A DNA stretch of 35,709 nucleotides from Ruminococcus sp. (GTDB lineage Bacteria > Bacillota > Clostridia > Oscillospirales > Ruminococcaceae). Below are positions 161 to 35,488 of this stretch, one piece after another; within the stretch, counting starts at the first letter, position 1, and each line of letters starts with the position of its first letter. The DNA is taken from NCBI GenBank assembly GCA_015066665.1, contig SVNX01000022.1:1-35709 (forward strand), in the 5' to 3' direction. Made by a program: the position numbers and the translations under genes. The notes beneath the pieces are model-generated. The model was given only the letters and a program-made list of their open reading frames with translations. It ran no database searches and was not told where the DNA came from.

Positions 161-1819
161 TCAGCTCCAGTCCTCTTTTCCGTCCCTGTGCTGTTTCAGA
201 GCGGCAAAGCGCAGAAGCTGCTTGCGGGAAGAAATGCCGAGTTTGCTGTAGATGTTCTTGTTGTGGTATTTGATCGTATTTTCGGTAATGTGCAGGATCT
301 CGGCGATCTGCTTGGCACTCTTCCCCGAGAGATACAGCTCATAGATTCTGTACTCAGCAGGGGTGAGCATGCTGAGATTCTCCACGAAGAAGTGGTATTC
401 CTCCGGTACAATCTCCTCCTTATGCTGCTCAGCAAGGCGGTCGATCTCGCTTTTGGCAAGCTCATACTGTTCGGCGGCCTTTTCGTAGGCTTCCTTGGCA
501 CGGCGTGCTTCCTCCTCGGCATGCTGCCTTGCCTCTTCAAGCGCATCCAGCTGCTGCTCGTAATCATTGTCCTTTTCCGCAAGAAAGGCGAACAGATCAT
601 CGATCTCACGGATTCTGAGCTGCGTGCCGTAGTCTTCCCTTGCTTTGACCAGTTCGATCTTTTTCAGAATGGGGGAGACATATTTCTTGCTCATGACGAT
701 GCAGCAGACCGCAGCCAGAATGGCGGCAATCAGAAAAATCAGAACGATATGCATCTGTCCTCTGTGCAGAAAATAGTCATACTGCGCCTGCGGGAGCATC
801 ACGGCAGCACGGAAGCTGTCACGTCCGATCGTGATGTCACGGGTCAGTCCCACGCACTGTTCATCACCGAAGTCAAACAGCTGTGAGCCGTTTTTATCAT
901 GAATCCGGAGCGTATTGTCCGGACGATTGTAGCGGCCGGAGCTGAACTGCCCTGCATACAGGCCGTCCTGTGCATCAAGCAGACCGCAGGTTTCACTGCC
1001 CCAGCGGCTCTCGACTGTCTTGTGCGAATGCTGGAACAGAAGATCGGTGCTTTCAAAGCCGCAGACGCCTATGATACAGTCGTTGTCATCACGGATGGGG
1101 ACATAGATATAGCGGGCACGTTCCCATGTGTCGGGGATGGAAACGACGGGACTGAGCACGAAATGCGTTCCCTCCGGAAAAAGTGCATCGCTGTCCTCGA
1201 AAAAATCCGTGCTGCACTCGTTCTTCCATCCGCTGTGAAATCCGATATTCCGGCTTTTTCCGGTTGCAAAGGATCCTCTGTAAATCGAGAAATCATTGTT
1301 GACGGTGTTTTCCGAGCAGAGATTGATGTATTTGAGATAGAGGCAGCTGCGAAGCGGGGTGTCGGAATGGCTGTTGGCAGTTGTGTCAAGTATGCAGAAT
1401 GCACCGCTGGCCGGTGCCACCTGCATGTTCAGATAGACCGCATCGTAGAGACGGCTTTGCAGTGTATCAAGGGCGTCCGGATTGTCCTGCAGTTCTTCAA
1501 AGCGGATGCGGTTTTCGGTCAGATAATCCTGAATGGTCTGTTCGAGCTGATTGGAAAAGGAGATGGCACAGGCGGCCAGCTCGTCACTGTCACGCTCGAT
1601 GCGCTCGGAACAGGCGTCAAGCCGTGCCTGCAGATCGTTCATGATCTGTCTGTCGGTCGGACTGAGAATGCCGAACAGGTTCAGCAGAATCACAATAAGT
1701 GCAAGGAAAAGGCAGATCAGGGAAAATACATAGAGCGCAAAGCGTCTGCGCATGGAGACGCCCTCAGCTACGAAGTGCCGGAACAGGCGTCCGATGTCAG
1801 GGAATTTCAGTGTCTTCAT
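161..1819 (-). CDS. Membrane-spanning sensor with C-terminal LuxR-type HTH
   Basis: This 552-residue protein combines an outside sensor and a DNA-binding domain in one chain. A hydrophobic segment at about 27-50 and a second at about 356-377 enclose roughly 305 extracytoplasmic residues, whose length and position suit a Cache-like ligand domain; that assignment is an inference. A HAMP-like stretch (about 378-412) follows, then a charged, Ala/Glu-rich coiled coil (about 415-468). A LuxR-type helix-turn-helix closes the chain (about 485-540, with LTPAEYRIYELYLSGKSAKQ and TENTIKYHNKNIYSKLGISS). No histidine kinase or receiver domain is present, so signalling would be direct, from membrane to DNA. 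An alternative start is Met23. The gene lies 10 bp downstream of a solute-binding lipoprotein on the same strand, its likely signalling partner. LuxR assignment is firm; the ligand is unknown. Confidence 0.8.
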   Translation of the reverse strand: MKTLKFPDIGRLFRHFVAEGVSMRRRFALYVFSLICLFLALIVILLNLFGILSPTDRQIMNDLQARLDACSERIERDSDELAACAISFSNQLEQTIQDYLTENRIRFEELQDNPDALDTLQSRLYDAVYLNMQVAPASGAFCILDTTANSHSDTPLRSCLYLKYINLCSENTVNNDFSIYRGSFATGKSRNIGFHSGWKNECSTDFFEDSDALFPEGTHFVLSPVVSIPDTWERARYIYVPIRDDNDCIIGVCGFESTDLLFQHSHKTVESRWGSETCGLLDAQDGLYAGQFSSGRYNRPDNTLRIHDKNGSQLFDFGDEQCVGLTRDITIGRDSFRAAVMLPQAQYDYFLHRGQMHIVLIFLIAAILAAVCCIVMSKKYVSPILKKIELVKAREDYGTQLRIREIDDLFAFLAEKDNDYEQQLDALEEARQHAEEEARRAKEAYEKAAEQYELAKSEIDRLAEQHKEEIVPEEYHFFVENLSMLTPAEYRIYELYLSGKSAKQIAEILHITENTIKYHNKNIYSKLGISSRKQLLRFAALKQHRDGKEDWS

Positions 1820-1829
1820 GTCTCAGCCC

Positions 1830-3200
1830 TCACATATCCTTGTCCGAAAGGCGTCTGAGCTCTGCAAGAGATGCGGCAGCAAGTTCATCCAGTACAGCCG
1901 CTTTGTCCTCACCGGCGGCTGTGCGCTCGGCATACTGACTGTGTGCGGATTTCAGCACCTGCTTGACATGCTGTTCAAAACAGCTCTGCACATCCGAAGC
2001 GCCTGCATAACGAGGCAGTGCATGGAGCGTATGGCTTTCCATCATGCCGTCCATCATATCGTAAAGATGGGAAAAATGTTCTGTACCTGCCGTGTCCGTA
2101 TCGTCAAACAGTGCTTCAAAGGCGGTATCAGTGACGGGCAGATAACCGGCACTTGTGACAAACTGCAGGTTGTTTTCATCCTCGGTCAGCCATTTTGCAA
2201 AGAGGACGGCAGCATAATTTTTTCGTTCATCCTCGCTTTTTACAGCAAACAGGCCGCCGCCCCGATGGACTGCGGCGGGCTCTGCCGCCTTGAATCGGGG
2301 ATAGGGCAAGGCAAGTGATTCGATCGGCTCTGTAGTATTGTCGGGATAGAAAACCATCTCGGGCTGGTAGAGGATGTCCGCCGTTGAGCCGATGTTGGAG
2401 ATGATCTCCACAGTCTTCCAGCGTGAAGCGGCATAGCCGTCATCGAGACAGATGCCGCCGTAAATGGCCGCCCTGCTCAGAGGATACCACACCTTTTCAA
2501 ATGCATCATCGTCCAGATTCAGCCGCCCGTCCTCGATCAGGGCACTGTCATGGGCTGCCATGCCGATGAAGGCGTAATTGTAAAAGTCGTTGATCTGCGT
2601 GAAATTCTGGCCGTCCGACCAGTCGTAATAGAGATTTGCCGTGTCAAAAAAGCCCTCGAAGGTCAGAAGATCCTCGGCGGATACGTCTGCCTCGTCAGCA
2701 AACCTGTCAAACAGCGTCCGATTCAGGAACAATGCTTCCGAGGATTTGGCAATGGGCAGCATGAGGAGCTTATCGCCGAAACAGCCTTCGTCAATGAATT
2801 CGTCCCTGAAGAGCGCAAGCTCTTCTTCGGAAAAATAGTCATTCCAGCAAAGAAGCTCTTCCTCACCAACGATTTCTGCCACACGCGGATAGGCGGTGAA
2901 GAGATCCGGCAGTTCCTCGGCACCGGGTTCACCGTTGGCTGAGGCAAGCAGTGCCTTGTCAATGGCCGAGGAGCTTGTGACCGACACTACGTTGACCGTC
3001 ACGCCGTTTTCACGGCCGACGGTGTCGTTGAATGTATCAATCGCATCATTGAGAGGGGAGCGGGTCTGGCTGCCATAGACATGCCACATGGTGAGGGTGA
3101 CAGGATGACCGGCATCCGGCCGCTGCCTGCTGCCGCAGCCTGCAAGGCTCACAGCGAGCATGAGCAGAGCCAGAAATATGTAAAAGATTCGTTTCATCAT
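1830..3200 (-). CDS. Extracellular solute-binding lipoprotein (family 1 type)
   Basis: A lipoprotein with a signal peptide (MMKRIFYIFLALLMLAVSLA) and lipobox LAGC, so it should be anchored outside the membrane by the lipidated Cys22. The mature start LTMWHVYG and the following pattern fit the family 1 sugar-type periplasmic binding proteins of ABC importers, about 456 residues. I chose the Met pair at 3200/3197 because AAGGGA sits just upstream; the open frame runs 31 codons further but would bury the signal peptide. No permease or ATPase gene is nearby. It is instead followed 10 bp later by a membrane-spanning LuxR-type regulator. This suggests ligand capture for sensing, though it could also feed a transporter encoded elsewhere. 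The substrate, probably a carbohydrate, cannot be read from the sequence. Confidence 0.82.
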   Translation of the reverse strand: MMKRIFYIFLALLMLAVSLAGCGSRQRPDAGHPVTLTMWHVYGSQTRSPLNDAIDTFNDTVGRENGVTVNVVSVTSSSAIDKALLASANGEPGAEELPDLFTAYPRVAEIVGEEELLCWNDYFSEEELALFRDEFIDEGCFGDKLLMLPIAKSSEALFLNRTLFDRFADEADVSAEDLLTFEGFFDTANLYYDWSDGQNFTQINDFYNYAFIGMAAHDSALIEDGRLNLDDDAFEKVWYPLSRAAIYGGICLDDGYAASRWKTVEIISNIGSTADILYQPEMVFYPDNTTEPIESLALPYPRFKAAEPAAVHRGGGLFAVKSEDERKNYAAVLFAKWLTEDENNLQFVTSAGYLPVTDTAFEALFDDTDTAGTEHFSHLYDMMDGMMESHTLHALPRYAGASDVQSCFEQHVKQVLKSAHSQYAERTAAGEDKAAVLDELAAASLAELRRLSDKDM

Positions 3201-3238: not shown

Positions 3239-3325
3239 TTTCTGCAATATTTTTGGTTTTCCCACCCTTTTTCTGCAATTTGGGTAGTGTCAAAAAGTCC
3301 GATTTGCGGTATAATCAGATTGCAG
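3239..3325. promoter_or_regulatory. Repeated CTGCAAT motifs between divergent units
   Basis: TTTCTGCAATAT (3239-3250) and TTTCTGCAATTT (3270-3281) are direct repeats 31 bases apart, about three helical turns on the same DNA face. The core recurs inverted as ATTGCAG at 3319-3325. They lie between the minus-strand lipoprotein/LuxR operon and the plus-strand promoter at 3310. A regulator-binding role, perhaps for the adjacent LuxR protein, is an inference. Confidence 0.4.
3287..3315 (+). promoter_or_regulatory. Promoter for leader RNA and DUF6935 gene
   Basis: A consensus -10 TATAAT (3310-3315) lies 17 bases after a weak -35 GTGTCA (3287-3292). Transcription would begin near 3322, giving a leader of about 180 bases before the gene at 3502. 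Confidence 0.55.
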
Positions 3326-3440
3326 GCGACAAAAGAGAGTATGGATCCCTGCGTGCGATCAGGGTGCTCGAAGTTCCTGTGGGTGCGCCAACAGTCACAG
3401 GAACCGCCCGTCCTTTCATTTTAGCATATTACAGCAATTA
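3322..3440 (+). ncRNA. Unidentified structured leader or small RNA
   Basis: No protein is evident in this stretch, but it folds by eye. GTTCCTGTG (3373-3381) pairs perfectly with CACAGGAAC (3396-3404). Around it GGGTG (3362-3366) pairs with CGCCC (3405-3409) with one G-U. Upstream, CCCTG and CAGGG around 3350-3364 could form a competing stem. I could not match it to T-box, SRP, c-di-GMP, FMN, TPP or ZTP consensus elements. It may be a cis-regulatory leader for the gene at 3502 or a free-standing RNA; a 6S-like rod is one untested possibility. Confidence 0.4.
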
Positions 3441-5756: not shown

Positions 5757-8744
5757 ATGAAGTTGAAAAGAATTTGTGCGGCGATGCTTTCCGCCGTCAC
5801 TGCGTTCAGCGTTTTTGCAGGAATACAGCCGATGAACAGCATGTCCTCCGCCGATTGGATGGCATCGCTGCCTTCCGCTGTGTTCGAGGTGGAGCCGATC
5901 ACGGCGGAGGCGGCAGGGAATTTCCGCCGCGTCGTATCGAATGAATCCCCGATGTGGATTATTCACATTGATTCGTGGAATTATGCCGATCCGGAAAAGA
6001 TCATCGAGCTTGTGCCCGAGGATGTCCTGCCGTATGTGGTGTTCAACATTTCCCTTTCCATCAACTGGAGCAGCACCGAGCACAAATGGCTCATGGTGCA
6101 GGACGGCGTCGAAACAGCAAGATCCTGGATGAAGGCCTGCGCCGACAAGGGCGTGTGGACGATGATTCAGCCCGCCAGCGGCGGACAGTGCCATTTCCCC
6201 GACTATAAGGCCACGGACGATCTGGACAATACGATTTTCGGCGAGTTCTTCCGTGAATATCCGAACTTCATCGGATTCAATTACTGCGAGCAGTTCTGGG
6301 GCTTTGCCTCCCAGGATTTCCCCGTGACCTACCAGCAGCGATATGATCATTTCTCCGCTCTCCTCAAGCTCTGCAACAAGTACGGCGGCTATCTCGATAT
6401 CAGCTGGTGTGAGAACCAGTGGGGCTCCCAGCTCAATCCCGTTGCCATGCTGAAGACGAATGCCAACTGGGAGAAGGCTGCACGCACCTATTCAGAGAAT
6501 CTCATCCTCGAAGAAAAGTACACCCAGTCCGGCTATATTGCGGCTGTGGAGAGTGAGGTCTATGGTGCGTACATATCCGGCTACTGCGGCAATTTCGGCG
6601 TGCGCTGGGATGATACAGGCTGGTCGGACTACCCCTGGCAGGGCGGTGACCTCGACCCGCAGACCAAGGATCAGTACAGACTTGTGACATCGGTCCCCGT
6701 ACTTCTCGAACGTATGGTGCAGAACGGCATGACCGTCATTGACGGCCCCGAGCTGATCTGGGCGGACTGCATCAAGGAGAACTGGATCAAGCGTGACGAG
6801 GAAGGCTATGAGATCCGTAACTGGTCATTCTATGATCAGTACCAGAATGATGTCCTCGATCTCTACCGGAAGTTCAATGACGGCGCCATCCGCATTCCGA
6901 CCCGTGAAGAAGTGGTCAGCCGGACAAAGGTCGTGGTGATTCAGGATGTCAACAGCGGCAGCAATGATGAGAAATACTGCATCTATAAGAACATGTTCGA
7001 AGGCCTGTACCGTGCGGCTAATGACGGCAATCTGAAGGATAACCATAATCCCTTCAAGTCCACCGGACGCTACCAGACCATTCCCGTTGTATATGGTCTT
7101 GCGGACGATCTTGCCAAGTCCATTCCCGTGCAGATCAAGCAGTCCGAAATCCCTTCAAGATGGAACAGCATTGAAGCCAAGCAGTCCGAATTCAACCGGC
7201 TCTACGGCGAGGACTACTACGGCAATATGTATGCAGGCCGCAACGAAAACAGCTGGGTGACCTATAATCCCTTCAAGACCGAAACCGAAGCGGGCGGCTA
7301 CCTCTATCTGAAGTACAACACCTGCAAGCAGCTTGAAGTGAAATATCCCCGCTACGGCGCCGGTCTGATCAATGAATACGCCGATCATATTGATTTCTAT
7401 CTCAGCAACTATGATGAGGATAATACCACGACCCTGAAGACAGACATGATCAAGATCTATGGCTGCAGCAAGGAGCCTGTCATCACCATGCAGAAGGACA
7501 GGGGTGTCAACCAGCAGAAAACGGAGATCACCACTTCGTACGAGAACGGCACCTTCACGATGTATGTCAAGCACAACGGCCCTGTGGATGTCAGCGTCCA
7601 GTGCGAGGGCAATGAAACCGGCCGTCAGACATCATTCACGCCCTCCAGACAGAGTGCACCCGAATTTCCGGAAAACTATGAGGGCGTGCGCCAGTATGAA
7701 GCGGAAAACTTTGACCGTAAGAACATCGAAGAGAATGTGACCAATGCCTGCAGAAGCGGCGTGACCGGCTGCTGGGGCATGGGCTTTATGAAGTTCGGTA
7801 CAAAGGATACCGCTGCGGCAAGGGATTATGTCAACACCGGAAAGGCCGGTACGTTTGATCTGACACTGCGTTATTCCGCTGTGTCCGATATCAATCAGGT
7901 CGATCTGTATGTGAACGGCACCAAGCAGGAGACGCTCTCCCTTGGCAGTACGGGCTCTTACAATACATGGAAAACGGTGAAGACATCCGTGCAGCTGAAG
8001 CAGGGAGAAAACAAGATCGAATTCCGTGCGAATGCCGCACTGCCGAGCTCCCTCTATCTGGACTGCTTCCAGGTGGCCGGTGATTTCGGAGAACGCAATC
8101 TCCCCGAGCCGATTGCCGGCGGCACTCTCTTCACGGAGGTTATTGTAAGAGATGCGGAAAATCGTGATGACTGGTCGGTTTATGAGAACTTCGGCATTGG
8201 TTCATCCATTTTCGGCGACCGCAATATCCATGCCGCTTCCGTACCGAATGCACTGTTCGGTGCAGAGGCTATCCGTACAGCCTGTGACTCCAAGATGTAC
8301 CAGAAGGAGCTGGGATCATTTGTGGCGGGCGATGACATGACGCTCTATATTGCCACCGATACCCGTGTGGTGGATATGGGACTGCCCACATGGTTCTCGA
8401 CCCTGACTGATACGAATCAGAACATCGTCCTCGACAACGAGCTTGTCCTGCGTGTGTATTCTCGTGAGGTGAAAAAAGGCGATCTTGTGACGCTCGGAAC
8501 AAACGGCGGCAACGGCAACAATGTCTGCTATATTGCCCTTGCGGTTTCTGCGGATGCCCCCCTCAGAGGTGATGTGAACATGGATGGAAAGTTCAATCTG
8601 GCCGATGTTGTGCTGATGCAGAAATGGCTTCTGGCTTCCCCCGATGCAGTACTCGCTGACTGGAAGGCCGGTGACCTCTGTGCAGATGACCGCCTGAATG
8701 GATTCGATCTGGCACTGATGAAACGTGCCGTGTTGGAAAACTAA
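5757..8744 (+). CDS. Cellulosomal GH98 glycoside hydrolase with dockerin
   Basis: A 995-residue secreted enzyme. Signal peptide at about 1-30, then a GH98 catalytic region at about 55-620, opening SNESPMWIIHIDSWNYADPE. Residues matching the GH98 catalytic set as I recall it are Glu178 (NYCEQFWGF), the Asp pair 285-286 (RWDDTGW) and Glu332 (IDGPELIW). Residues 645-775 form a CBM6/35-like binding module (VRQYEAENFD). Residues 793-932 form a module also present in the PL11 enzyme at 21075. A type-I dockerin ends the chain (about 936-995, GDVNMDGKFNLADVVLMQKW and AGDLCADDRLNGFDLALMKR). GH98 includes blood-group endo-beta-galactosidases and endo-xylanases; a dockerin on a fibre degrader favours a plant substrate, but this is inference. 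RBS AAGGAG precedes ATG. Confidence 0.9.
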   Translation: MKLKRICAAMLSAVTAFSVFAGIQPMNSMSSADWMASLPSAVFEVEPITAEAAGNFRRVVSNESPMWIIHIDSWNYADPEKIIELVPEDVLPYVVFNISLSINWSSTEHKWLMVQDGVETARSWMKACADKGVWTMIQPASGGQCHFPDYKATDDLDNTIFGEFFREYPNFIGFNYCEQFWGFASQDFPVTYQQRYDHFSALLKLCNKYGGYLDISWCENQWGSQLNPVAMLKTNANWEKAARTYSENLILEEKYTQSGYIAAVESEVYGAYISGYCGNFGVRWDDTGWSDYPWQGGDLDPQTKDQYRLVTSVPVLLERMVQNGMTVIDGPELIWADCIKENWIKRDEEGYEIRNWSFYDQYQNDVLDLYRKFNDGAIRIPTREEVVSRTKVVVIQDVNSGSNDEKYCIYKNMFEGLYRAANDGNLKDNHNPFKSTGRYQTIPVVYGLADDLAKSIPVQIKQSEIPSRWNSIEAKQSEFNRLYGEDYYGNMYAGRNENSWVTYNPFKTETEAGGYLYLKYNTCKQLEVKYPRYGAGLINEYADHIDFYLSNYDEDNTTTLKTDMIKIYGCSKEPVITMQKDRGVNQQKTEITTSYENGTFTMYVKHNGPVDVSVQCEGNETGRQTSFTPSRQSAPEFPENYEGVRQYEAENFDRKNIEENVTNACRSGVTGCWGMGFMKFGTKDTAAARDYVNTGKAGTFDLTLRYSAVSDINQVDLYVNGTKQETLSLGSTGSYNTWKTVKTSVQLKQGENKIEFRANAALPSSLYLDCFQVAGDFGERNLPEPIAGGTLFTEVIVRDAENRDDWSVYENFGIGSSIFGDRNIHAASVPNALFGAEAIRTACDSKMYQKELGSFVAGDDMTLYIATDTRVVDMGLPTWFSTLTDTNQNIVLDNELVLRVYSREVKKGDLVTLGTNGGNGNNVCYIALAVSADAPLRGDVNMDGKFNLADVVLMQKWLLASPDAVLADWKAGDLCADDRLNGFDLALMKRAVLEN

Positions 8745-20868: not shown

Positions 20869-21074
20869 ATGTTAACGTACGGTTTCGGAAAGTTCACATA
20901 TCGGCTGGTTCGACAGGCCGCACAATCCTGCATAACAGTTGAGAAGAGAGATATGAAGAAATTGTAAATGCGCTGTATTTTCAGCGTGATTGCGGATTGA
21001 CTTTGGCGTGAAGATAGGATATGATGAATATACCGAATGGCGAAAACCCAAACATATTACAAGGGGGAATTACT
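20869..21074 (+). other. Long leader of the PL11 gene
   Basis: About 220 bases separate the probable start point from the PL11 ATG. A tiny frame, ATG AAG AAA TTG TAA, begins at 20953 behind GAGAAGAGAGA. A longer in-frame extension from 21021 lacks signal-peptide sense. I recognise no riboswitch. Confidence 0.4.
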
Positions 21075-23735
21075 ATGAAAAAGACATTCAAGAGAACCGC
21101 TGCATTCCTTGCAGCACTGACCGTTGGATTTGCAGGCATGAGCATGCCGCAGATGCAGCAGAATGCACTGGCCGCACCGACACAGATGGTCGAGTACCTC
21201 GACCGCGGCATCACCGCAGTCAACACCGGCTCCGGCATGCTCGTCAGCTGGCGCTTCCTTGCAAGCGATGCGGACAACACCGAATTCAAGCTCTACCGTG
21301 ACGGCAATCTGATCTACACAAGCGGGGCGGGCAAGGCCACCTGCTACCTCGATAAGGGCGGCAGTGCAGCTTCCTCCTACCGTGTGGAAACCATCGTCGG
21401 CGGTGCAGTGAAATCCACCGATACCTGCGGCTTCGTGTCCAACACCAGCTACTTCACCATTCCCATGGATGTACCGAAGGGCGGCACCACACCGGATGGC
21501 GTTACCTATACCTATTCTCCGAATGACTGTTCCACCGGTGATGTGGATGGCGACGGCGTGTATGAGATCTTCGTGAAATGGGATCCGTCCAATTCCAAGG
21601 ACAACTCCCACAGCGGCTATTCGGGCAATGTATTCATCGACTGCTATCGTCTGAACGGTGAAAAGCTCTGGCGTGTGGATCTGGGTAAAAATATCCGTGC
21701 CGGCGCACATTATACGCAGTTCCTCGTTGCAGACTTTGACCTCGACGGCAGAGCCGAAATGACCTGCAAAACCGCAGACGGCACCGTGGACGGCAAGGGC
21801 AAGGTGATCGGCGATGCCTCCAAGGATTACCGCAACGGCGGCGGTTACATCCTCTCCGGTCCTGAGTATTACACACTCTTCGACGGTGCAACCGGCGCTG
21901 CACTGGATACTGTGAACTATGAATATCCCCGCGGCGAAGTCACAAAGCAGACTTGGGGCGATAATTATGGCAACCGCTGCGACCGTTATCTTGGTGCGGT
22001 GATGTATCTTGACGGCGAAAGACCGAGTGCGGTTTCCGTCAGAGGCTACTACACCAGAATGACCGCTGTTGCCTATGATGTTGTGGACAAGAAACTGGTA
22101 AAGCGTTGGGGTTATGATACAGGCTACAACAGATCCGCAGCCGGATACAGCAACGGCAACCATAATGCCATGCCTGCGGATGTTGATGGTGACGGCAGAC
22201 AGGAACTCGTTCTCGGTGCAACATGTATTGATGATAATGGTTCCGTACTTTGGTGCAACTGGATGGGCCATGGCGATGCAATGCATCTGAGCGACTTCCT
22301 CCCCGACAGACCCGGTCAGGAAGTATGGGTTTGCCACGAGCATGCTCCCTACGGCGTATCCCTCCTGGATGCGAAGGACGGCAGCAAGATCTTCCATTAC
22401 GATCATTCCAAGGATACAGGCCGCTGTGCAGCGGGCAATATCTATGCAGGCAATCCCGGTGCAGAATTCTGGGGTGCACAGTCCGGCAGTGTCTACGACA
22501 GCAAGGGTCAGTCCACGGGTATTGAGCGTCCGTCCATGAACTTCCTGATTTATTGGGACGGCGATCTGGAACGTGAGCTGATGAGCGGCAATGCCATCAG
22601 CAAGATCAATGCCAATAAGAAGATTGAGTATCTCCTGATGGCCGATGAATGCGGTTCCTGCAACAGCACAAAGGCCACACCCTGCCTGACCGCTGACCTC
22701 TTCGGTGACTGGCGTGAGGAGCTTGTGCTGCGAACTAATGACAACAAATATCTGCGTGTATACTGCACCCCCTATGCAACCGATGTCAGACTCACCACTC
22801 TGATGCATGATACCCAGTACCGTGCGCAGGTTTCTACCGAGCAGTCCGGCTATAACCAGCCTCCGCATCCGAGCTTCTACCTCGGTTCCGACAAGAATCT
22901 TCCCGCAAGACCCAATGTGGCAGTCAACGGCGGCTATGAGCCGGAGAGCGGCACACTGATTCAGGTGCTCGATGTACAGGACAGCGCAAACCGTCTGAAC
23001 TGGCATATCGGCAACAATGCACAGGTCGGCAGCGTCATCTACGGTGACAGAACCTTCACCTATACCACACTCCCCGAGGCACTCGTGGGTACAGAATATA
23101 TCCAGACTGCATGTGATTCCAAGTTCTCTACGGAGACACTGGCCGGCTTTACTGCTGGTGCAGACATGAGCGTCTATGTGGCTCTCGACAACCGTGTGGA
23201 AACTCTGCCCGCATGGCTGAACGGCTGGGAGAAGACTTCCATGACAGCGCAGAGCGACAATGATGTAACATTTGATATTTATACCAAGAATGTAAAAAAG
23301 GGCGAAGCTGTGGAACTCGGCACAAACGGCCAGTCCTCCTACTGCATGAACTACACCGTATTTGCTTCCACCGTGCCCTATGAGGAACCCACAACTGAGC
23401 CGACCACTGAACCCACTACAGTTCCTACTACTGCACCTACCACCGAACCCACTACGGCTCCCACAACCGCACCCACTACTGAACCGACAACAGAACCTAC
23501 AACCGCACCGACTGATGAAATCAAGCCCACACTGTACGGTGATGTCAATGTGGACGGCAGCGTATCGATCGTCGATGTCATCATGCTCAACCGCAATGTC
23601 ATGGGCTCCGATACCATTTCGCCCATCGGCACCCTCAATGCCGATGTGACCAAGGACGGCGTCGCTGATGCAAACGATTCACTGATGATTCTCAAGTCTC
23701 TCGTGGATCAGCTGACACTTCCCACGCTTTCTTGA
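21075..23735 (+). CDS. Rhamnogalacturonan lyase PL11 with dockerin
   Basis: An 886-residue secreted lyase that would cut the rhamnogalacturonan-I backbone of pectin by beta-elimination. Signal peptide at about 1-34 (ALAAPTQ). The PL11 region at about 36-620 opens MVEYLDRGITAVNTGSGMLV and continues with the Ca-binding, propeller-type signatures GDVDGDGVYEIFVKWDPSNS and ADVDGDGRQELVLG. Residues about 627-766 form a module also found in the GH98 enzyme at 5757. A Thr/Pro/Glu linker (770-815) leads to a C-terminal dockerin (821-883, DVNVDGSVSIVDVIMLNR and NADVTKDGVADANDSLMILK). Start at 21075 because AAGGGGG precedes it. The double CE12 esterase gene follows 84 bases later, a functional pair for acetylated pectin. 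Confidence 0.93.
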   Translation: MKKTFKRTAAFLAALTVGFAGMSMPQMQQNALAAPTQMVEYLDRGITAVNTGSGMLVSWRFLASDADNTEFKLYRDGNLIYTSGAGKATCYLDKGGSAASSYRVETIVGGAVKSTDTCGFVSNTSYFTIPMDVPKGGTTPDGVTYTYSPNDCSTGDVDGDGVYEIFVKWDPSNSKDNSHSGYSGNVFIDCYRLNGEKLWRVDLGKNIRAGAHYTQFLVADFDLDGRAEMTCKTADGTVDGKGKVIGDASKDYRNGGGYILSGPEYYTLFDGATGAALDTVNYEYPRGEVTKQTWGDNYGNRCDRYLGAVMYLDGERPSAVSVRGYYTRMTAVAYDVVDKKLVKRWGYDTGYNRSAAGYSNGNHNAMPADVDGDGRQELVLGATCIDDNGSVLWCNWMGHGDAMHLSDFLPDRPGQEVWVCHEHAPYGVSLLDAKDGSKIFHYDHSKDTGRCAAGNIYAGNPGAEFWGAQSGSVYDSKGQSTGIERPSMNFLIYWDGDLERELMSGNAISKINANKKIEYLLMADECGSCNSTKATPCLTADLFGDWREELVLRTNDNKYLRVYCTPYATDVRLTTLMHDTQYRAQVSTEQSGYNQPPHPSFYLGSDKNLPARPNVAVNGGYEPESGTLIQVLDVQDSANRLNWHIGNNAQVGSVIYGDRTFTYTTLPEALVGTEYIQTACDSKFSTETLAGFTAGADMSVYVALDNRVETLPAWLNGWEKTSMTAQSDNDVTFDIYTKNVKKGEAVELGTNGQSSYCMNYTVFASTVPYEEPTTEPTTEPTTVPTTAPTTEPTTAPTTAPTTEPTTEPTTAPTDEIKPTLYGDVNVDGSVSIVDVIMLNRNVMGSDTISPIGTLNADVTKDGVADANDSLMILKSLVDQLTLPTLS

Positions 23736-23783: not shown

Positions 23784-23819
23784 GCACTTCTATCCGGTGG
23801 ATGATTGAGGAGGATAAAC

Positions 23820-26771
23820 ATGAAAAAAACACTTTTCAAACGGCTGGCCGGTCTGTTTCTTGCAGCGGCCATGGCTGTACCGGCAGGTCTTTCGGGCAGT
23901 TTCACCCCCGAAAAGACAGCTTCTGCGGCCGGTACGAATTATCGCTTTGACTTCGGCGGAAATGGCGCTGCTTCGGGCTATACCGCAGTGAGTGCCGCCG
24001 ATGGCTACAGTGCCTCCAGAGGCTATGGCTTTGCCAAGACCTCGGGTGTGAAGAATGTGGGTGCATCCGGTTCCGGTGCGCTCTCCGATGCGGTCCAGTT
24101 CACTGACACTGCATGGTCGAACACATTCAATGTCGATCTCCCGAACGGCCTGTACAGAATCAACATCACACTCGGCAATACCACCCGTACATCGGTCGTG
24201 GCTGAGAATGTGCTGCAGGTTATCAATATGACCGGCAACAATGCCACTGACTCTATCCTGATCCCGATCACGGACGGCCAGCTCAATATCATGGCTTGCC
24301 CCGGCAAAGCGGGCTATGCCTATACCATGAGCGCACTGGACATCGAGTGGGTGTCCGATTCCACACAGCTGCCGCCGACCGTCTGGTTCTGCGGTGATTC
24401 CACCGTCTGCAACTACTACCCCAAGGCCACAAGTACACAGGCCGGCTGGGGACAGGTCTTTGATCAGTTCGTAGGCGAGGGCTGGCAGGTGCGCAATATG
24501 GCTGCCAGCGGTCAGTATGCAGCCGGATTTGTGAATGCAGGTCAGTTCGACCCCATCCTCAAGTACGGCAAGGAGGGCGATGTTTACATCATCTCCATCG
24601 GCATCAACGATACAAATTATTCCAATAAGGACGAATATACCAAGGCCGTAACCGACATGGTGCAGAAGGCCAAGGCAAAGGGCATGCAGGTCATTCTCGT
24701 CAAGCAGCAGGGCAGAAAGGGCGACTATACAAAAAATCCCCTCCTGACCGGCAGATGGTTTGGCGGCCAGCTCGATGCCATCGGTGCTGCTGAAGGCGTG
24801 CAGGTACTCGACCTGTTTAACCTCTTTCAGGATTACTGCGTATCCGTCGGTGCTGCGAAAGCAGACACCTTCTTCGTGGACAATCTCCATCCCAACCGCA
24901 CCGGTGCGCTCATTCTCGCAGAACTTGCCGCTTCCCAGATCAAGCTCGGTGATGCACCGCCCGTGACCGGCGGCGAAACAGGGGACGAAGTCAATGAGGG
25001 CATGACCTTCATGCTGAAGAATGCCAACAGCGGTTTGTATCTTGCGCTGGAATCTGCGCCTGCGGACGGTGCAAATGTCGTACAGGCAGAAAATAAGGGC
25101 ATCGGTGAAGGCTACGCCGCATGGAAGGCCGTTGCCGCCGGCGATGGCTACTACAAGATCTACAGCTGTGCCGATGAGACAAAGCTCCTCGATCTGTACT
25201 ATGGTTCTGCGGAATCCGGCACGAACATTGGCATCTGGAGCGATACCGCAAGCGATGCGCAGCTGTTCAAGTTCATTGAACAGGACAACGGCAGCTACAT
25301 CATCACCACCAAGGCAAGCAATGATGCCAGTGCTGTGGAAGTCAATGCCGCATCCAAGGACAGCGGTGCCAATGTACAGCAGTGGGAGAGAAACGGCCTC
25401 GTGCATCAGACATGGTTCATGGAGAAGGTTGTGACACCCTCTGTGGATGTGACACCGGGCGATCTGAACGGCGACGGCGTGATCAATGGCTTTGACGAAG
25501 CAATTCTGAAGAAGATGCTCCGCGAGGAGAACGGCTCCCGCCGTCAGAAGCGCAGTGCTGATGTCAATGCCGATGCCGGCGTGAATGCGAATGACTGCAA
25601 GGCTCTCCATGATTATGTGATGAACCGCGGCAGTCTTGCCGAGGCAGCAGGCGGCACCAAGCTGTATTATGCTGTCGATCAGGCCTACAACAGCGGCATC
25701 GAGGAGAGCAGCAATGCGGGCTTTGCTTCCGATGCCTACCTGAATCTCGACAACAAGGCGGGAAGCTTTGCTGAGTGGCAGGTCAATGTCCCCACGGACG
25801 GCAATTACCTCTGCACCTTCCACATCGCCAACGGCAGTGCAAACGACCGCCAGATGAAGATCGAAGTCAATAATGCCAAGGATTACTGGGTACAGCCCTT
25901 CCTGACAACTTCCGCTTGGACAACATGGCAGGAGCGTGCCATTGTACTGCCCCTGGTCAAGGGTGCCAATCTCATCCGCATGACCTCGCTCACCGCTGAA
26001 GGCGGCCCGAACCTCGACTATCTGCGTCTGGAATGGACGGATGAGCCGATCGCCGAGGTCTATGCACCCGAGGAAAAGCCCCCTGTAACCGACAATGGCG
26101 GTGATGTGACCATCTACATTGCCGGCGATTCCACCGTGCAGAGCTACAAGGCCAGCTATGCACCGCAGCAGGGCTGGGGCTATTATCTTGGCAACTACTT
26201 CAGCAGCAATACAACCGTATCGAACCATGCCATTGCCGGCCGCAGCTCGAAGTCCTTCTATGACAACGGCCGACTCGATACCATCCTCGGCCAGATCAAG
26301 GCCGGCGATTATCTGCTGGTGCAGTTCGGCATCAATGACGGTGCTGCCAGCAAACCCGAGCGTTATGCGCCCACCTGCGGACAGGTGCCCGGTACGGACG
26401 GCAGCTATGAGTTCTACATGGCAAAGTACATTGAGGGCGCACTCGAAAAGGGTGCAACCCCGATCCTGATCTCCCCGACACTGAGTCTGAAGAACCGTTC
26501 CGGCAATACCTTTGTGGCAAGCTACACAAATTACACGGATTCCGTGAAGAAGCTTTCCGCTTACTATAAGGTTCCCTACATTGATCTCAATGGTCTGATG
26601 GTGGATCACTACAACCAGATCGGCTATGATAAGGCGTACACCTATCATATGTGCGTGACAGGTTCCACTGACATGACCCACTTCACCGAAACCGGTGCAA
26701 ATGCCGTTGCCGGCCTTGTGGCAGGTGCCATCAAGGAGCTTGGCGTGGACATCTCTGGTCGTGTGAAATAA
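23820..26771 (+). CDS. Double CE12 esterase with central dockerin
   Basis: A 983-residue secreted enzyme that would remove acetyl groups from rhamnogalacturonan. Order: signal peptide 1-37; beta-sandwich 40-177; first CE12 domain 186-375 with Ser194 (CGDST), Gly231, Asn263 (GIND), Asp354 and His357 (DNLH); ricin-type lectin CBM13 393-535. Next come a central dockerin 545-605 (GDLNGDGVINGFDEAILKKM and ADVNADAGVNANDCKALHDY), a CBM35-like module 612-742 and a second CE12 domain 762-975 with Ser771, Gly807, Asn839, Asp951 and His954. Both catalytic sets are complete. The dockerin sits mid-chain so both catalytic ends can reach outward. Start at 23820 follows GAGGAGG. It lies 84 bases after PL11, probably co-transcribed. 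Confidence 0.93.
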   Translation: MKKTLFKRLAGLFLAAAMAVPAGLSGSFTPEKTASAAGTNYRFDFGGNGAASGYTAVSAADGYSASRGYGFAKTSGVKNVGASGSGALSDAVQFTDTAWSNTFNVDLPNGLYRINITLGNTTRTSVVAENVLQVINMTGNNATDSILIPITDGQLNIMACPGKAGYAYTMSALDIEWVSDSTQLPPTVWFCGDSTVCNYYPKATSTQAGWGQVFDQFVGEGWQVRNMAASGQYAAGFVNAGQFDPILKYGKEGDVYIISIGINDTNYSNKDEYTKAVTDMVQKAKAKGMQVILVKQQGRKGDYTKNPLLTGRWFGGQLDAIGAAEGVQVLDLFNLFQDYCVSVGAAKADTFFVDNLHPNRTGALILAELAASQIKLGDAPPVTGGETGDEVNEGMTFMLKNANSGLYLALESAPADGANVVQAENKGIGEGYAAWKAVAAGDGYYKIYSCADETKLLDLYYGSAESGTNIGIWSDTASDAQLFKFIEQDNGSYIITTKASNDASAVEVNAASKDSGANVQQWERNGLVHQTWFMEKVVTPSVDVTPGDLNGDGVINGFDEAILKKMLREENGSRRQKRSADVNADAGVNANDCKALHDYVMNRGSLAEAAGGTKLYYAVDQAYNSGIEESSNAGFASDAYLNLDNKAGSFAEWQVNVPTDGNYLCTFHIANGSANDRQMKIEVNNAKDYWVQPFLTTSAWTTWQERAIVLPLVKGANLIRMTSLTAEGGPNLDYLRLEWTDEPIAEVYAPEEKPPVTDNGGDVTIYIAGDSTVQSYKASYAPQQGWGYYLGNYFSSNTTVSNHAIAGRSSKSFYDNGRLDTILGQIKAGDYLLVQFGINDGAASKPERYAPTCGQVPGTDGSYEFYMAKYIEGALEKGATPILISPTLSLKNRSGNTFVASYTNYTDSVKKLSAYYKVPYIDLNGLMVDHYNQIGYDKAYTYHMCVTGSTDMTHFTETGANAVAGLVAGAIKELGVDISGRVK

Positions 26772-28577: not shown

Positions 28578-31097
28578 TCAGGAGAACAGTTCCCGCTTCA
28601 TCCGGCCAAGGTCAAAGCCGTTGAGGCGGCCGTCTTCACAGAGATCGCCGGCTTCGGCATCGACGATGTCACCGGCCTGCAGCAGCCATTTCTGCAGCAT
28701 CACCGCATCGTTCAGCGTGAAGGCACCGTCCGCATTCACATCGCCGCGTACGGATGCGGGCTGATTGTAATGCATCATTGCCGAGGTCAGAAGAAGCATG
28801 GCGGCATTGCCGTAGATGGTGTTTTCGTTTGTGGTGTATTCGGCATCGCTGTCGATATAGCATTTGCCCACGAATTTCGAGAGATGCGGATTGTTGTGAT
28901 TGTTTGCTCCCTCAGTGAAATAGCCTGCCGGACAGCGGTAAGGCGCAAGCCTTGCGTCCTTGGAATAGATCGCACTGTAGATGTTCTGCACGCAGTTTGT
29001 ACCGTGACCGGAAACATAACTGAAGGAGATGGGGTTATTGCCCAGGAGGTAGTGGAAATGTCTGTCCATCACGGAAAGGGCATCTTCACGGGGCGCAGCT
29101 TCGCCATAGAGGGCTATGTCACCGAGCATGATGGTCATTGCGCTCTGGGCGGTGTATTTGTTCGAACCCCACCAGAAGCCCCAGCTGGGAATGATCAGTC
29201 CCCAATTGTCGTTTTTCATCACGCGTGTGCGCCATGTTTCGTACTGGGCAAAGGTCTCGGCAATGGCAGAATCGGCATTGTCGTTGCCATAGAGATAATT
29301 GTAGAATCCAAGGAACGAGCGGCCACTGTGGCCATAGCCGATGCAGGAATTCTTGAAGCAGTTGTTGATGGCTTCCTCACTGCGGTGCGTCAGCAGATAG
29401 GACTCGTATTCGCTCACATCGTCTCCGGTCAGACGGAGTGCACGATGGAGCGAGCCGGCTGCCCAGTAGAGGCTGCGGTCGAGGTCATCCTGCTTGAATG
29501 TATAGGTACGGTTGGCCGCACCGATGGACATATTCTTGGGGTTGGCCGGATCCGTTGCCCAATCCCATGCCCGCAGTGCCGTGGCAAGGCAGGCTTCGGC
29601 AAAATCGGCATACTCCGGATAATTTCGGTAAACAATGTACGCATGGGCAAGCACTGCCGCCATATCCGAGGTCGCCAGATGGCACCGGAGATCCGTTTCG
29701 GATGCATCGGAAGTGTGGTCGGATGTTTTGTACAGCGTATCCTCAAGATAGATTACGCCGTCACTGTAGTTGGCTGCCGTGTAGAAGGAGCCGTCCTTGC
29801 TTCTGTGCTCGAGCTTGAGCAGCATGTCCAGTTCCCACTTGATTTCCGCCAGAATCGGCGGTGCCGTTGTATAGGCAGGATGCGAAGGATCGGTTTCCGG
29901 AATGCGGATGTCCACATCTGCAAACACATCCGGATACAGTTCGCACGCCAGCAGCAGATCTTCGATGGAAGTGGCACCGGGGGAGGTGTATTTGCCATAG
30001 TCACCGGCATCGTACCAGCCGCCGGATACATCAAAGGTCTCGGCATCCGAATTGTTCCGGTCAGACCAGCGTCTGACAGCCACGTCGTCGGGATGGAGAT
30101 TTTTGCGTGCAAAATCGCCAGCATAGGCCTCCTCCAGATCGATGCCCTGACGCTGGTAGTAGTAATATTTTGCAAGATCACTGAACAGGCTGTCATACAC
30201 ATCATTGCCGATGCGGAAGGTGGCGGAGGTGATGGTATCAAGCGCAAGATTTTCCCTGATGTCACGCGGTGAACGTGCGGCGGCATCCAGCCCCGCATCA
30301 GGAATGCGGATGAAATAACGGCCCGGTGCTGTCACTTCATCAAAGCGGATGTCGTGCATGATTTCGCCGCCGAAGCTCTCTTCCAGCACACCCTCACCGA
30401 GTGTGCCGGTTGTGACGATTTCATTTGTATCGGCGTTCACCAGCTCCCATGTTTTGCCCTTGAGCGAGCCGAATTTTTCAAAATAGGTCACACGGGCAGA
30501 TTTGGGTGCATTGCAGAAATAGCCAACCTGATTGACCTTGAGCAGGGGATACTGCCGCTCATCATCGGGGGAGGTGATGGTGACGTTCCGGAAGGAGAGC
30601 GTACTGCCCGAGGGCACGCCGCCCACCGCCACGAACTGCAAGAAATCGAGTGTGAAATCCGTGTCCGCATTGGCGTCCACCAGCGGTTTGATCGGCAGGG
30701 AATAGCTTGTCCAGGAAGAGCCGGCGCTGATTGACTTGTATTCTTCGAGATCCGTCCAGTAGATGCGTGTCTCCTTGCCGTGCATGCGGGAGACGAGGCC
30801 GAGCTTGAAATTCACATCGCCCGTTCCGTTGTGAATGACCTCAAAGTTGAGTTTGCCGTTTTCGTAGTAATCGTTGATGGTCAGCGATGTCCAGTTGGTG
30901 TTCGGAGTCATGGTGGCACCGCCCCAGCTTTCGGTCGTCCAGTCCTTTCCGTTGTTGTCGATCAGAATCGTCTGCAGCTGCAGCCCCTCGGTTTCCTGCA
31001 CATTCGCTGCGGATACTGCCGCTGCAGGTGCAGTGGAAAGCAGCATAGCCGCACCGAGTGCGGATGCTGTGATTCTTGTGCGGATCGTTGTTTTCAT
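28578..31097 (-). CDS. Cellulosomal GH9 glycoside hydrolase (cellulase)
   Basis: An 839-residue secreted enzyme that would cut beta-1,4-glucan. Signal peptide at about 1-31. Residues 39-178 form a beta-sandwich of carbohydrate-binding type (LIDNNGKDWTTESWGGATMT) whose family I cannot name. An Ig-like GH9 N-terminal domain follows (185-268, LKVNQVGYFCNAPKSARV). The GH9 catalytic domain is at about 290-778, with Asp363 and Asp366 (WYDAGDYGKY) and catalytic acid Glu758 (TTNENTIYGN). A dockerin ends the chain (783-838, GDVNADGAFTLNDAVMLQKW and GDLCEDGRLNGFDLGRMKRE), close to that of GH98. GCGAGGTG is a weak ribosome site upstream. It faces away from the adjacent GH9-GH16 gene. Endo- or exo-action is not decidable here. 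Confidence 0.93.
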   Translation of the reverse strand: MKTTIRTRITASALGAAMLLSTAPAAAVSAANVQETEGLQLQTILIDNNGKDWTTESWGGATMTPNTNWTSLTINDYYENGKLNFEVIHNGTGDVNFKLGLVSRMHGKETRIYWTDLEEYKSISAGSSWTSYSLPIKPLVDANADTDFTLDFLQFVAVGGVPSGSTLSFRNVTITSPDDERQYPLLKVNQVGYFCNAPKSARVTYFEKFGSLKGKTWELVNADTNEIVTTGTLGEGVLEESFGGEIMHDIRFDEVTAPGRYFIRIPDAGLDAAARSPRDIRENLALDTITSATFRIGNDVYDSLFSDLAKYYYYQRQGIDLEEAYAGDFARKNLHPDDVAVRRWSDRNNSDAETFDVSGGWYDAGDYGKYTSPGATSIEDLLLACELYPDVFADVDIRIPETDPSHPAYTTAPPILAEIKWELDMLLKLEHRSKDGSFYTAANYSDGVIYLEDTLYKTSDHTSDASETDLRCHLATSDMAAVLAHAYIVYRNYPEYADFAEACLATALRAWDWATDPANPKNMSIGAANRTYTFKQDDLDRSLYWAAGSLHRALRLTGDDVSEYESYLLTHRSEEAINNCFKNSCIGYGHSGRSFLGFYNYLYGNDNADSAIAETFAQYETWRTRVMKNDNWGLIIPSWGFWWGSNKYTAQSAMTIMLGDIALYGEAAPREDALSVMDRHFHYLLGNNPISFSYVSGHGTNCVQNIYSAIYSKDARLAPYRCPAGYFTEGANNHNNPHLSKFVGKCYIDSDAEYTTNENTIYGNAAMLLLTSAMMHYNQPASVRGDVNADGAFTLNDAVMLQKWLLQAGDIVDAEAGDLCEDGRLNGFDLGRMKRELFS

Positions 31098-35200: not shown

Positions 35201-35488
35201 CTGAACTACTACACCAACGGTGTCGGCAATCACGAGTATTTCTATGATCTCGGATTTGACGCTTCCGAAGGCTTCCACACCTATGGCTTTGACTGGCAGC
35301 CCGACCACATCACCTGGTATGTTGACGGCAAGGCTGTTTACACAGCATACGACAACATTCCCAAGACCGCCGGCCGTATCATGATGAACACATGGCCCGG
35401 CACCGGCGTGGATGAGTGGCTCGCACCGTATGACGGCAAGACTCCTCTGACTGCACGTTATCAGTGGGTTACCTACAAGGCTAACTAA
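32246..35488 (+). CDS. GH9-dockerin-GH16 bifunctional cellulase/beta-glucanase
   Basis: A 1080-residue secreted enzyme. Signal peptide at about 1-33; CBM4-like module 34-185 ([20 protein letters not shown]); Ig-like domain 197-282; GH9 domain about 288-715 with Asp341 and Asp344 (HDAGDY) and acid Glu699 ([10 protein letters not shown]). A Thr/Pro/Glu/Gln linker (720-760) leads to the dockerin 764-828 ([20 protein letters not shown], then [20 protein letters not shown]). A second Thr/Gln/Pro linker (830-853) leads to a GH16 domain 855-1080 with the DEIDIE motif, nucleophile Glu971 and acid/base Glu975. GH9 would cut cellulose and GH16 mixed-linkage beta-glucan (lichenan type). RBS GAGAGGG. A mid-chain dockerin leaves both enzymes free. 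Its dockerin is close to that of PL11. Confidence 0.93.

Follow-up and report, generated by a model that had tools for sequence, protein, structure and literature searches.

A solute-binding lipoprotein paired with a transmembrane LuxR-type protein: a probable surface-to-DNA regulator of a surface or envelope operon in Ruminococcus and its relatives

Architecture of the locus

Two adjacent genes on the minus strand of Ruminococcus sp. contig SVNX01000022.1 (assembly GCA_015066665.1) are the subject of this work, and they lie in a stretch of 35,709 nucleotides (positions 1 to 35,709 of the forward strand), the whole of which is referred to as the window. The upstream gene encodes a 456-residue solute-binding protein (SBP) of lipoprotein type, P0002 (1830..3200, −), and the downstream gene a 552-residue transmembrane LuxR-type regulator, P0001 (161..1819, −), with 10 bp between the stop codon of the first and the start codon of the second. 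An earlier note, made from the DNA letters alone, had proposed that such a pair could act as a direct sensor from the cell surface to DNA in a fibre degrader. Our analysis suggests that the lipoprotein and the membrane regulator, inherited together in gut and rumen bacteria, connect the cell exterior with the genes by a short and direct route. The window starts at contig base 1, so DNA past the P0001 gene is not visible in this genome.

P0002 matches SBP_bac_8 in Pfam (E 4.8e-17) and carries a hydrophobic leader at residues 5-23. Alignment of the family showed Cys22 to be near-invariant, and a lipobox-like string was seen in 38 of 42 aligned homologues. The structure model (predicted local distance difference test score, pLDDT, 91.6) resembles cluster-B sugar-type SBPs, with Foldseek matches to 7c14 (E 1.7e-19) and also to cyclic-maltosyl-maltose, CbpB and UgpB proteins. 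In P0001, hydropathy and the AlphaFold2 model (pLDDT 82.6) place a first transmembrane (TM) helix at residues 34-52 (1664..1720, −), preceded by a positively charged N-terminus, and a second at residues 358-376 (692..748, −), and these are its only two hydrophobic segments, clearly separated. The extracytoplasmic region between them (residues 54-343; 791..1660, −) gave no Pfam match above the cut-off; its model is double-Cache (dCache)-like and resembles the dCache domains of chemoreceptors including TlpQ, Tlp1 and PctA, with TlpQ the best Foldseek match (E 3.9e-7). Of its two Cache modules, the one farther from the membrane is the better conserved. A long cytoplasmic helix or coiled coil, modelled with low confidence at the helix end, follows at residues 404-469 (413..610, −), and a LuxR (GerE) helix-turn-helix (HTH) closes the protein at residues 484-539 (203..370, −; Pfam E 1.6e-15). 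Pfam found no HisKA, HATPase or receiver domain in P0001, and none appears in the list of the 25 commonest matches for the 46 homologues. Membrane segments and DNA-binding domain share one polypeptide that lacks a receiver or kinase domain, unlike LiaRS-type two-component systems, which consist of a histidine kinase and a receiver-LuxR response regulator. The gene order, the sugar-type lipoprotein and the succession of two membrane helices, large outside domain, coiled coil and LuxR HTH were thus as the earlier note had read them. Homologue rows interrupted by stops (LuxR L015; SBPs L026, L041, L059 and L070) and a LuxR row lacking a start (L061) were left out of the alignments.

Conservation of the pair and scarcity of permeases

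A contig scan with P0001 as query returned 78 loci, and tblastn placed an SBP directly upstream in 65 of 65 Cache-LuxR loci, counting those in which the N-terminal part of P0001 is matched and DNA upstream is present. The remaining 13 comprise seven loci at a contig edge, one SBP-LuxR remnant (L074) and five loci (L077-L081) with another LuxR type that match P0001 in its C-terminal part only and have no SBP. Across the set, pair identity drops from 77% to about 26% for the LuxR protein and 30-35% for the SBP, and the pair occurs in Clostridia-type assemblies and in two Phascolarctobacterium assemblies (L059 and L069). Gaps between the two genes, judged by the ends of the open reading frames (ORFs), are mostly below 20 bp and reach 30-63 bp in the majority of the diverged loci.

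The same adjacency was found when genomes were surveyed with an SBP profile. At E<=1e-30 the profile has a homologue in 26 of the 394 genomes sampled from the order and in 48 of the 391 sampled from the class. The survey of the order gave 32 SBP places, the window included, and 31 of them have a Cache sensor directly downstream (one of the 31, L145, is a weak match); the remaining place is truncated at a contig end. For the class, the 29 best-scoring of 51 new places were examined, the 22 weaker ones being left out, and 28 have the sensor after the SBP; the single miss ends at a contig edge. Relatives of permeases were found by phmmer in one of 96 SBP loci, where they lie beyond the LuxR gene, and in none of the class-survey loci; the queries were five sugar permeases that the window's own genome encodes, so that divergent permeases might be missed. 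Both the conserved adjacency that the earlier note had asked for and its description of a lipoprotein without permeases were thus upheld, and neither rare adjacency nor transporter genes belonging to the lipoprotein, which it had named as grounds for abandoning the idea, turned up. These results support the conclusion that the SBP and Cache-LuxR genes form one unit. The role of an ordinary ABC transporter SBP was rejected, as permeases are almost wholly missing nearby.

SBPs can work with distant permeases, and the genome of the window does hold a single permease pair of sugar type (C8), beside which the 9 kb examined contain no SBP. P0002 might on these grounds be a transport protein for an unlinked permease such as the C8 pair, its place beside the regulator being a matter of history. 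Given the near-absence of permeases nearby, a pairing kept over wide divergence and the swaps of output domain described below, we consider this very improbable.

Exchange of the output domain

Among the homologues sampled from the order, those that have diverged most retain the N-terminal sensor after the SBP and differ in the output domain. The output is a hybrid histidine kinase at L150 and L152, GGDEF at L151 and L153, and GGDEF-EAL at L154-L156. Typing of the 26 SBP-bearing genomes, two of which (G259 and G353) were left out as truncated or fragmentary, gave 17 with the HTH form and seven with another output (7 of 24 classifiable), where the HTH form was called by profile or string and only part of the proteins were run in Pfam. 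Class-survey loci were left untyped for output because they stop about 1.5 kb beyond the SBP gene. That the output is exchanged and the SBP is kept beside the sensor points to sensing, and to the SBP and Cache domain as a putative sensor module rather than a transporter.

It is conceivable, though improbable, that the LuxR protein senses through its own Cache domain and that the SBP merely concentrates the ligand or is a regulated surface protein. Many of the dCache domains matched by Foldseek are ligand-bound chemoreceptor domains, and CuaSR of Ruminiclostridium cellulolyticum responds to cellobiose even without its SBP CuaD, according to excerpts of PMC10384115; against this stand the presence of an SBP at every Cache-LuxR locus with upstream DNA and its persistence beside the Cache domain despite the change of output.

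The five shorter LuxR proteins at L077-L081 share the HTH, and the two that were tested in Pfam (L077 and L079) carry a HisKA_7TM sensor. Several such HisKA_7TM-LuxR genes adjoin the same type of operon as the SBP-LuxR pairs. At two loci (L049, 898-1863, and L175, 6582-7793) a 7TM-LuxR-like protein stands in tandem with an SBP-LuxR pair.

A conserved operator and promoter

The region upstream of the SBP gene contains an inverted repeat, CACCC-N14-GGGTAG (3263..3287, +), that we predict from its conservation to be an operator, followed 22 bp on, toward a divergent operon, by a predicted −10 box, TATAAT (3310..3315, +). Across loci the predicted operator has the consensus YACCC-N13/14-GGGTRG and lies mostly 21-22 bp before the −10 box of the divergent operon. 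The form YACCC-N13/14-GGGTR was found in 50 of 54 regions upstream of the SBP, in most cases 75-120 bp ahead of the start codon, and Markov shuffles yielded the repeat in 1.8% under the same search, in which spacers of 9-24 were allowed and all matching regions had a spacer of 13 or 14; two of 55 SBPs were left out, their upstream DNA being too short. Three of the four regions without an exact repeat have a one-mismatch version and one has a two-mismatch version. A −10 box on the operon side (match of at least 5/6) occurs near the repeat in 49 of the 50, at 21-22 bp in 38 of these, and on the SBP side a 6/6 match occurs in none and a 5/6 match in two. In 1.55 Mb of loci (some of which overlap) the repeat and −10 box stand together 64 times, in 58 cases on the side diverging from the SBP; with the reversed control the count was 0. 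Such spacing would place the repeat at the −35 position, as in activator-dependent promoters.

HTHs of the form KYHN[KR]NIY co-occur with the YACCC-N13/14-GGGTRG repeat. The variants RFHNRNIY (L171, L172 and L177) and RYHN[KQ]NIY (L164, plus strand, and L176) go with other repeats, as judged by eye, and their loci keep a similar core from GGGG.. to the −10 box after repeats of their own. At the 7TM-LuxR loci L077, L080 and L081 the repeat and −10 box precede an S-layer-type gene (SLH was shown for L077), and the repeat is not found before the other neighbouring operon; one short-LuxR locus, L301, whose contig is as long as that of L081, also has the repeat. No repeat was found at the GGDEF and kinase loci L150-L156. 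The LuxR HTH is accordingly predicted, by this agreement of sequences, to bind the YACCC-N13/14-GGGTRG repeat.

It is quite improbable, in our judgement, that repeat and −10 box instead form the promoter of another factor while the LuxR protein acts elsewhere. That explanation gains from the operator's being a prediction from sequence, from a pattern that by itself is not rare genome-wide, and from short-LuxR loci with a related HTH where the exact repeat is missing (among them L295, L296, L297, L299 and L300). It sits poorly with the agreement between repeat and recognition helix, with the repeat at three 7TM-LuxR loci that have the same HTH, and with the missing repeat at the GGDEF and kinase versions. 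As a finder of a genome-wide regulon the operator pattern was rejected, since by itself it stands at background level, and in G002, which has the LuxR gene and an SBP cut by a contig end, no operator pattern was found.

The divergent operon and other candidate targets

The predicted target operon begins with a DUF6935 protein, P0003 (3502..4101, +; PF22043, E 5.1e-55), and continues with P0004 (4114..5496, +), a lipoprotein with two DUF5640 or lipocalin-like stretches (PF18692, E 1.8e-14). Upstream DNA was long enough in 45 loci, and in 44 of them the divergent strand holds at least one recurring family, a count that is partly circular because the families were built from the same loci. These 45 loci hold DUF6935 in 27, a lipoprotein-like family (c3) in 23, DUF4428 in 17, family c4 in 16, small zinc ribbons in 13, SPFH in five, and TPM and ZnR7 in three each. 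DUF6935 is present in 13 of 17 HTH-form genomes and in 0 of 7 with another output (Fisher p 9.5e-4). A crude rule for signal sequences marks many divergent-strand neighbours as lipoprotein-like or secreted, and by these predicted contents the operon is surface- or envelope-like and not one of sugar catabolism. The SPFH-zinc ribbon, zinc ribbon-TM and TPM proteins of some target clusters correspond to YdjI, YdjG and YdjH, the make-up that excerpts of PMC8581546 and PMC11237479 describe for these Bacillus subtilis proteins. A literature search for DUF6935 gave no paper; DUF4428 appears, in an excerpt of one of two papers found for it, as an N-terminal domain in some SNIPE homologues.

A second repeat in the window's genome (C36:50199-50224, with TATGAT 22 bp on) precedes a gene whose secreted product of 792 residues carries a dockerin (E 2.1e-8; L216, 7200-9715) and has no catalytic domain named by Pfam; as a second operator it rests on inner sequence, spacing and position, because chance alone gives similar counts of the pattern. 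In one Phascolarctobacterium locus (L069, 5917-6830), a second operator with −10 box stands before a lipoprotein-like gene, apart from the SBP-LuxR pair. Elsewhere in the window's genome (contig C24; L180, 7636-10656), YdjI- and YdjG-like genes precede a short TPM-like frame, whose match to the TPM cluster profile covers only the two ends of the profile; this set was rejected as a direct target, there being no exact operator and no leader RNA match there.

The window itself also encodes cellulosome-type enzymes: a GH98-CBM-dockerin protein (5757-8744), a rhamnogalacturonan lyase 11-dockerin protein (21021-23735), a GDSL esterase-dockerin protein (23805-26771), a GH9-dockerin protein (28578-31097) and a GH9-GH16 protein (32246-35488). 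Membership of the GH98-dockerin gene in the unit was unsupported, as no ORF at any other locus clustered with it; the unclustered genes of those loci were left unannotated in this comparison. The link to fibre degradation that the earlier note had drawn is only partly borne out: the conserved neighbour is the divergent set of surface or envelope type and no operon for fibre degradation, and in this genome a single dockerin protein behind the second operator speaks for the link.

A structured leader RNA in many operons

Between the −10 box and the first gene of the operon, in the window and in many other loci, lies a structured leader RNA (3321..3416, +; model R1, match 3323-3416), identified by covariation and a covariance model. 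In its fold GAGRGTA is paired with TACYC over a long range, and a hairpin with the loop CGCGCCAACG is followed by CCGCCC. Of 51 candidates, three (L066, L072 and L162) were judged spurious and 39 of the other 48 were aligned (A3), near-identical ones being left out; the set favours its loop because candidates were seeded by the string GCCAAC. Over the 39 sequences pairing holds in 90.3% of cells, and both sides change in 87 cells, against 28.2 in shuffles and at most 16 in slid versions. Rfam 15 gave no match at the gathering score for the window and eight loci, with two leaders searched at a relaxed threshold, and Rfam families were rejected as assignments, the matches being below threshold and mutually unrelated. 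The leader is possibly a riboswitch or a protein-binding leader.

The covariance model matches eight loci outside the alignment at E<1e-8 (L047, L048, L049, L058, L067, L077, L080 and L081), three of them 7TM-LuxR loci (L077, 7182-7276; L080, 7186-7279; L081, 6399-6491, −). The leader is not universal: no match was found in the GGDEF and kinase loci, nor at E<=0.1 in L027, L028, L030-L034, L038, L059, L060 and L069-L072, and the match at L063 is weak (E 0.095). In the sample of the order it was detected at E<1e-8 in 15 of 394 genomes, with four more between 6.7e-4 and 9.6e-4. DUF6935 is present in 14 of the 15 leader-positive genomes versus 80 of 394 overall (Fisher p 9.6e-10); nine of the 15 supplied rows of the model, and five of the other six hold DUF6935. 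The six leader-positive genomes that supplied no rows are free of the SBP, and in these the leader occurs at seven places, six of which adjoin a short LuxR-type protein; the seventh (L298), with no short LuxR gene, lies upstream of a YdjI-YdjG-YdjH-like set.

The same anatomy could serve a different stimulus, namely envelope damage or an antimicrobial, with the SBP binding a cell-wall fragment or an envelope-active compound and the operon being a Psp-like regulon. We hold this to be unlikely, though it is the strongest of the alternatives. The leader RNA lies beside SPFH-zinc ribbon, zinc ribbon-TM and TPM genes in some relatives and short-LuxR loci, the kinds of protein that the B. subtilis papers describe, and lipoprotein-like or secreted neighbours on the divergent strand would fit as well. 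Few SBP-LuxR loci adjoin YdjIGH-type genes, however (3 of 45 for ZnR7 and TPM, 5 of 45 for SPFH); the YdjIGH set of the window's genome is unlinked to the pair, and it is a dockerin protein that stands behind the second operator of this genome.

Proposed mechanism and its weight

Taken together, we consider it probable that P0002 and P0001 form an SBP-gated transmembrane LuxR activator, that is, a two-protein, surface-to-DNA one-component system for a surface or envelope operon. For the ligand, the contact between SBP and Cache domain, the activation and the physiological role of the pair, we infer the following. A small ligand, probably a glycan or something glycan-like, would be captured by the lipoprotein on the outer side of the membrane, and the SBP would dock on the dCache domain of its partner; the resulting change would pass through the second TM helix and the coiled coil and place two LuxR HTHs for DNA binding. 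The HTHs would then bind YACCC-N13/14-GGGTRG and activate the divergent operon, whose transcript would carry, here and in many relatives, the folded leader RNA and then DUF6935 and lipoprotein genes, to which relatives would add zinc-ribbon, DUF4428 and sometimes YdjI/YdjG/YdjH-like proteins. The system would in this way tune proteins of the cell surface and envelope rather than sugar import. Of the direct sensor that the earlier note had imagined, the conserved pairing of the two genes as one unit and the fitting architecture (two TM helices, dCache, coiled coil and HTH) have stood; direct sensing itself keeps the conditional form given here.

Several observations weigh against this proposal. 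Excerpts of PMC11113362 state that adjoining SBP and sensor or kinase genes are not always linked, and the C8 permease pair without a neighbouring SBP has been mentioned. Pairwise distances of SBP and LuxR proteins agree (52 pairs, r 0.98; r 0.92-0.95 within groups), as any co-inherited neighbours would be expected to do. DUF6935 is not specific to the pair, as 67 of the 80 genomes having it are without the SBP. The agreement between HTH and repeat is confounded with ancestry, and the exact repeat is missing at the 7TM-LuxR loci L078 and L079 as well as at the five short-LuxR loci named above. Finally, besides its background level genome-wide, the repeat alone was found at two places in the window's genome (2.03 Mb, 77% complete) versus 3-4 for the reversed control.

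A broader reading, for which the case appears evenly balanced, is that of a new modular circuit, in which an SBP and dCache receptor with an evolving output (LuxR HTH, GGDEF, GGDEF-EAL or hybrid kinase) is joined to a dedicated operator partly shared with the 7TM-LuxR proteins, to a new leader RNA in many operons and to a DUF6935/YdjIGH-like surface set. A dedicated SBP-gated membrane LuxR protein would add a transcription regulator that works without a phosphorelay to the receptors known to be switched by SBPs. With predictions in place for the operator, the −10 spacing and the target operon, the system can be tested directly; it would give a ready reporter for a rumen ligand, and through it DUF6935, DUF4428 and the leader RNA become approachable.

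Comparison with known systems

The pairing is real and widely distributed, and it probably represents a variant of the SBP-gated transmembrane transcription regulators that had no description within the reach of the literature searches. Among the papers listed by these searches, which mostly miss subscription papers, we recognised no published pairing of an SBP with a Cache-LuxR protein. Excerpts of PMC9602780 and PMC11113362 describe SBP-switched receptors among chemoreceptors, histidine and Ser/Thr kinases and cyclic di-GMP enzymes, an excerpt of a survey of Cache domains (PMC4822843) counts HTH outputs as a class, and a term search of the main text of a survey of transmembrane transcription regulators (PMC10269533) gave no mention of LuxR, GerE or Cache.

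Among membrane-bound regulators, DadR, HcdR and CadR of Coriobacteriia are likewise of LuxR type and span the membrane, and in their gut bacteria they activate genes next to their own; they differ in having 10-12 TM helices, with no SBP mentioned in the excerpt of PMC9734109, whereas P0001 has two TM helices and a large outer domain; the HisKA_7TM-LuxR sister family is closer to them in outline than the Cache-LuxR proteins are. The pspA-ydjGHI operon of B. subtilis encodes the same kinds of protein as some target clusters, a likeness judged without PspA, and is under SigW control in place of the operator, leader RNA and LuxR protein seen here. NspS-MbaA, as far as excerpts describe it, also couples an SBP to a membrane sensor, an outline shared by the GGDEF-EAL relatives at L154-L156, and differs in its polyamine class of ligand and its cyclic di-GMP enzyme output.

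The statement of the earlier note that no named system has this form is nearly right, in that the same build was not found, and it needs amending for CBP-ChiS, whose way of working the pair would share and whose build is different. ChiS is a derivative of a hybrid sensor kinase; the regulator described here, unlike it, combines dCache, coiled coil and LuxR HTH without kinase domains. In Vibrio cholerae, according to excerpts of PMC11856585, chitin-loaded CBP activates the membrane-embedded ChiS, 'likely via a direct interaction', so that an SBP-activated transmembrane regulator itself binds promoters, as proposed for our pair; CBP-ChiS acts on genes of chitin uptake and catabolism and the present pair adjoins surface or envelope genes. 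In CuaDSR of R. cellulolyticum and XylFII-LytS, excerpts of PMC10384115 describe an SBP lipoprotein gene beside that of a two-TM sensor in a cellulolytic host, with the SBP binding the outer domain of the sensor. CuaDSR, however, controls sugar uptake genes by way of a histidine kinase that hands the signal to a second protein, the response regulator, while here one protein spans membrane and DNA. By analogy, CBP-ChiS would thus be the nearest system in its working and CuaDSR the nearest in its biology.

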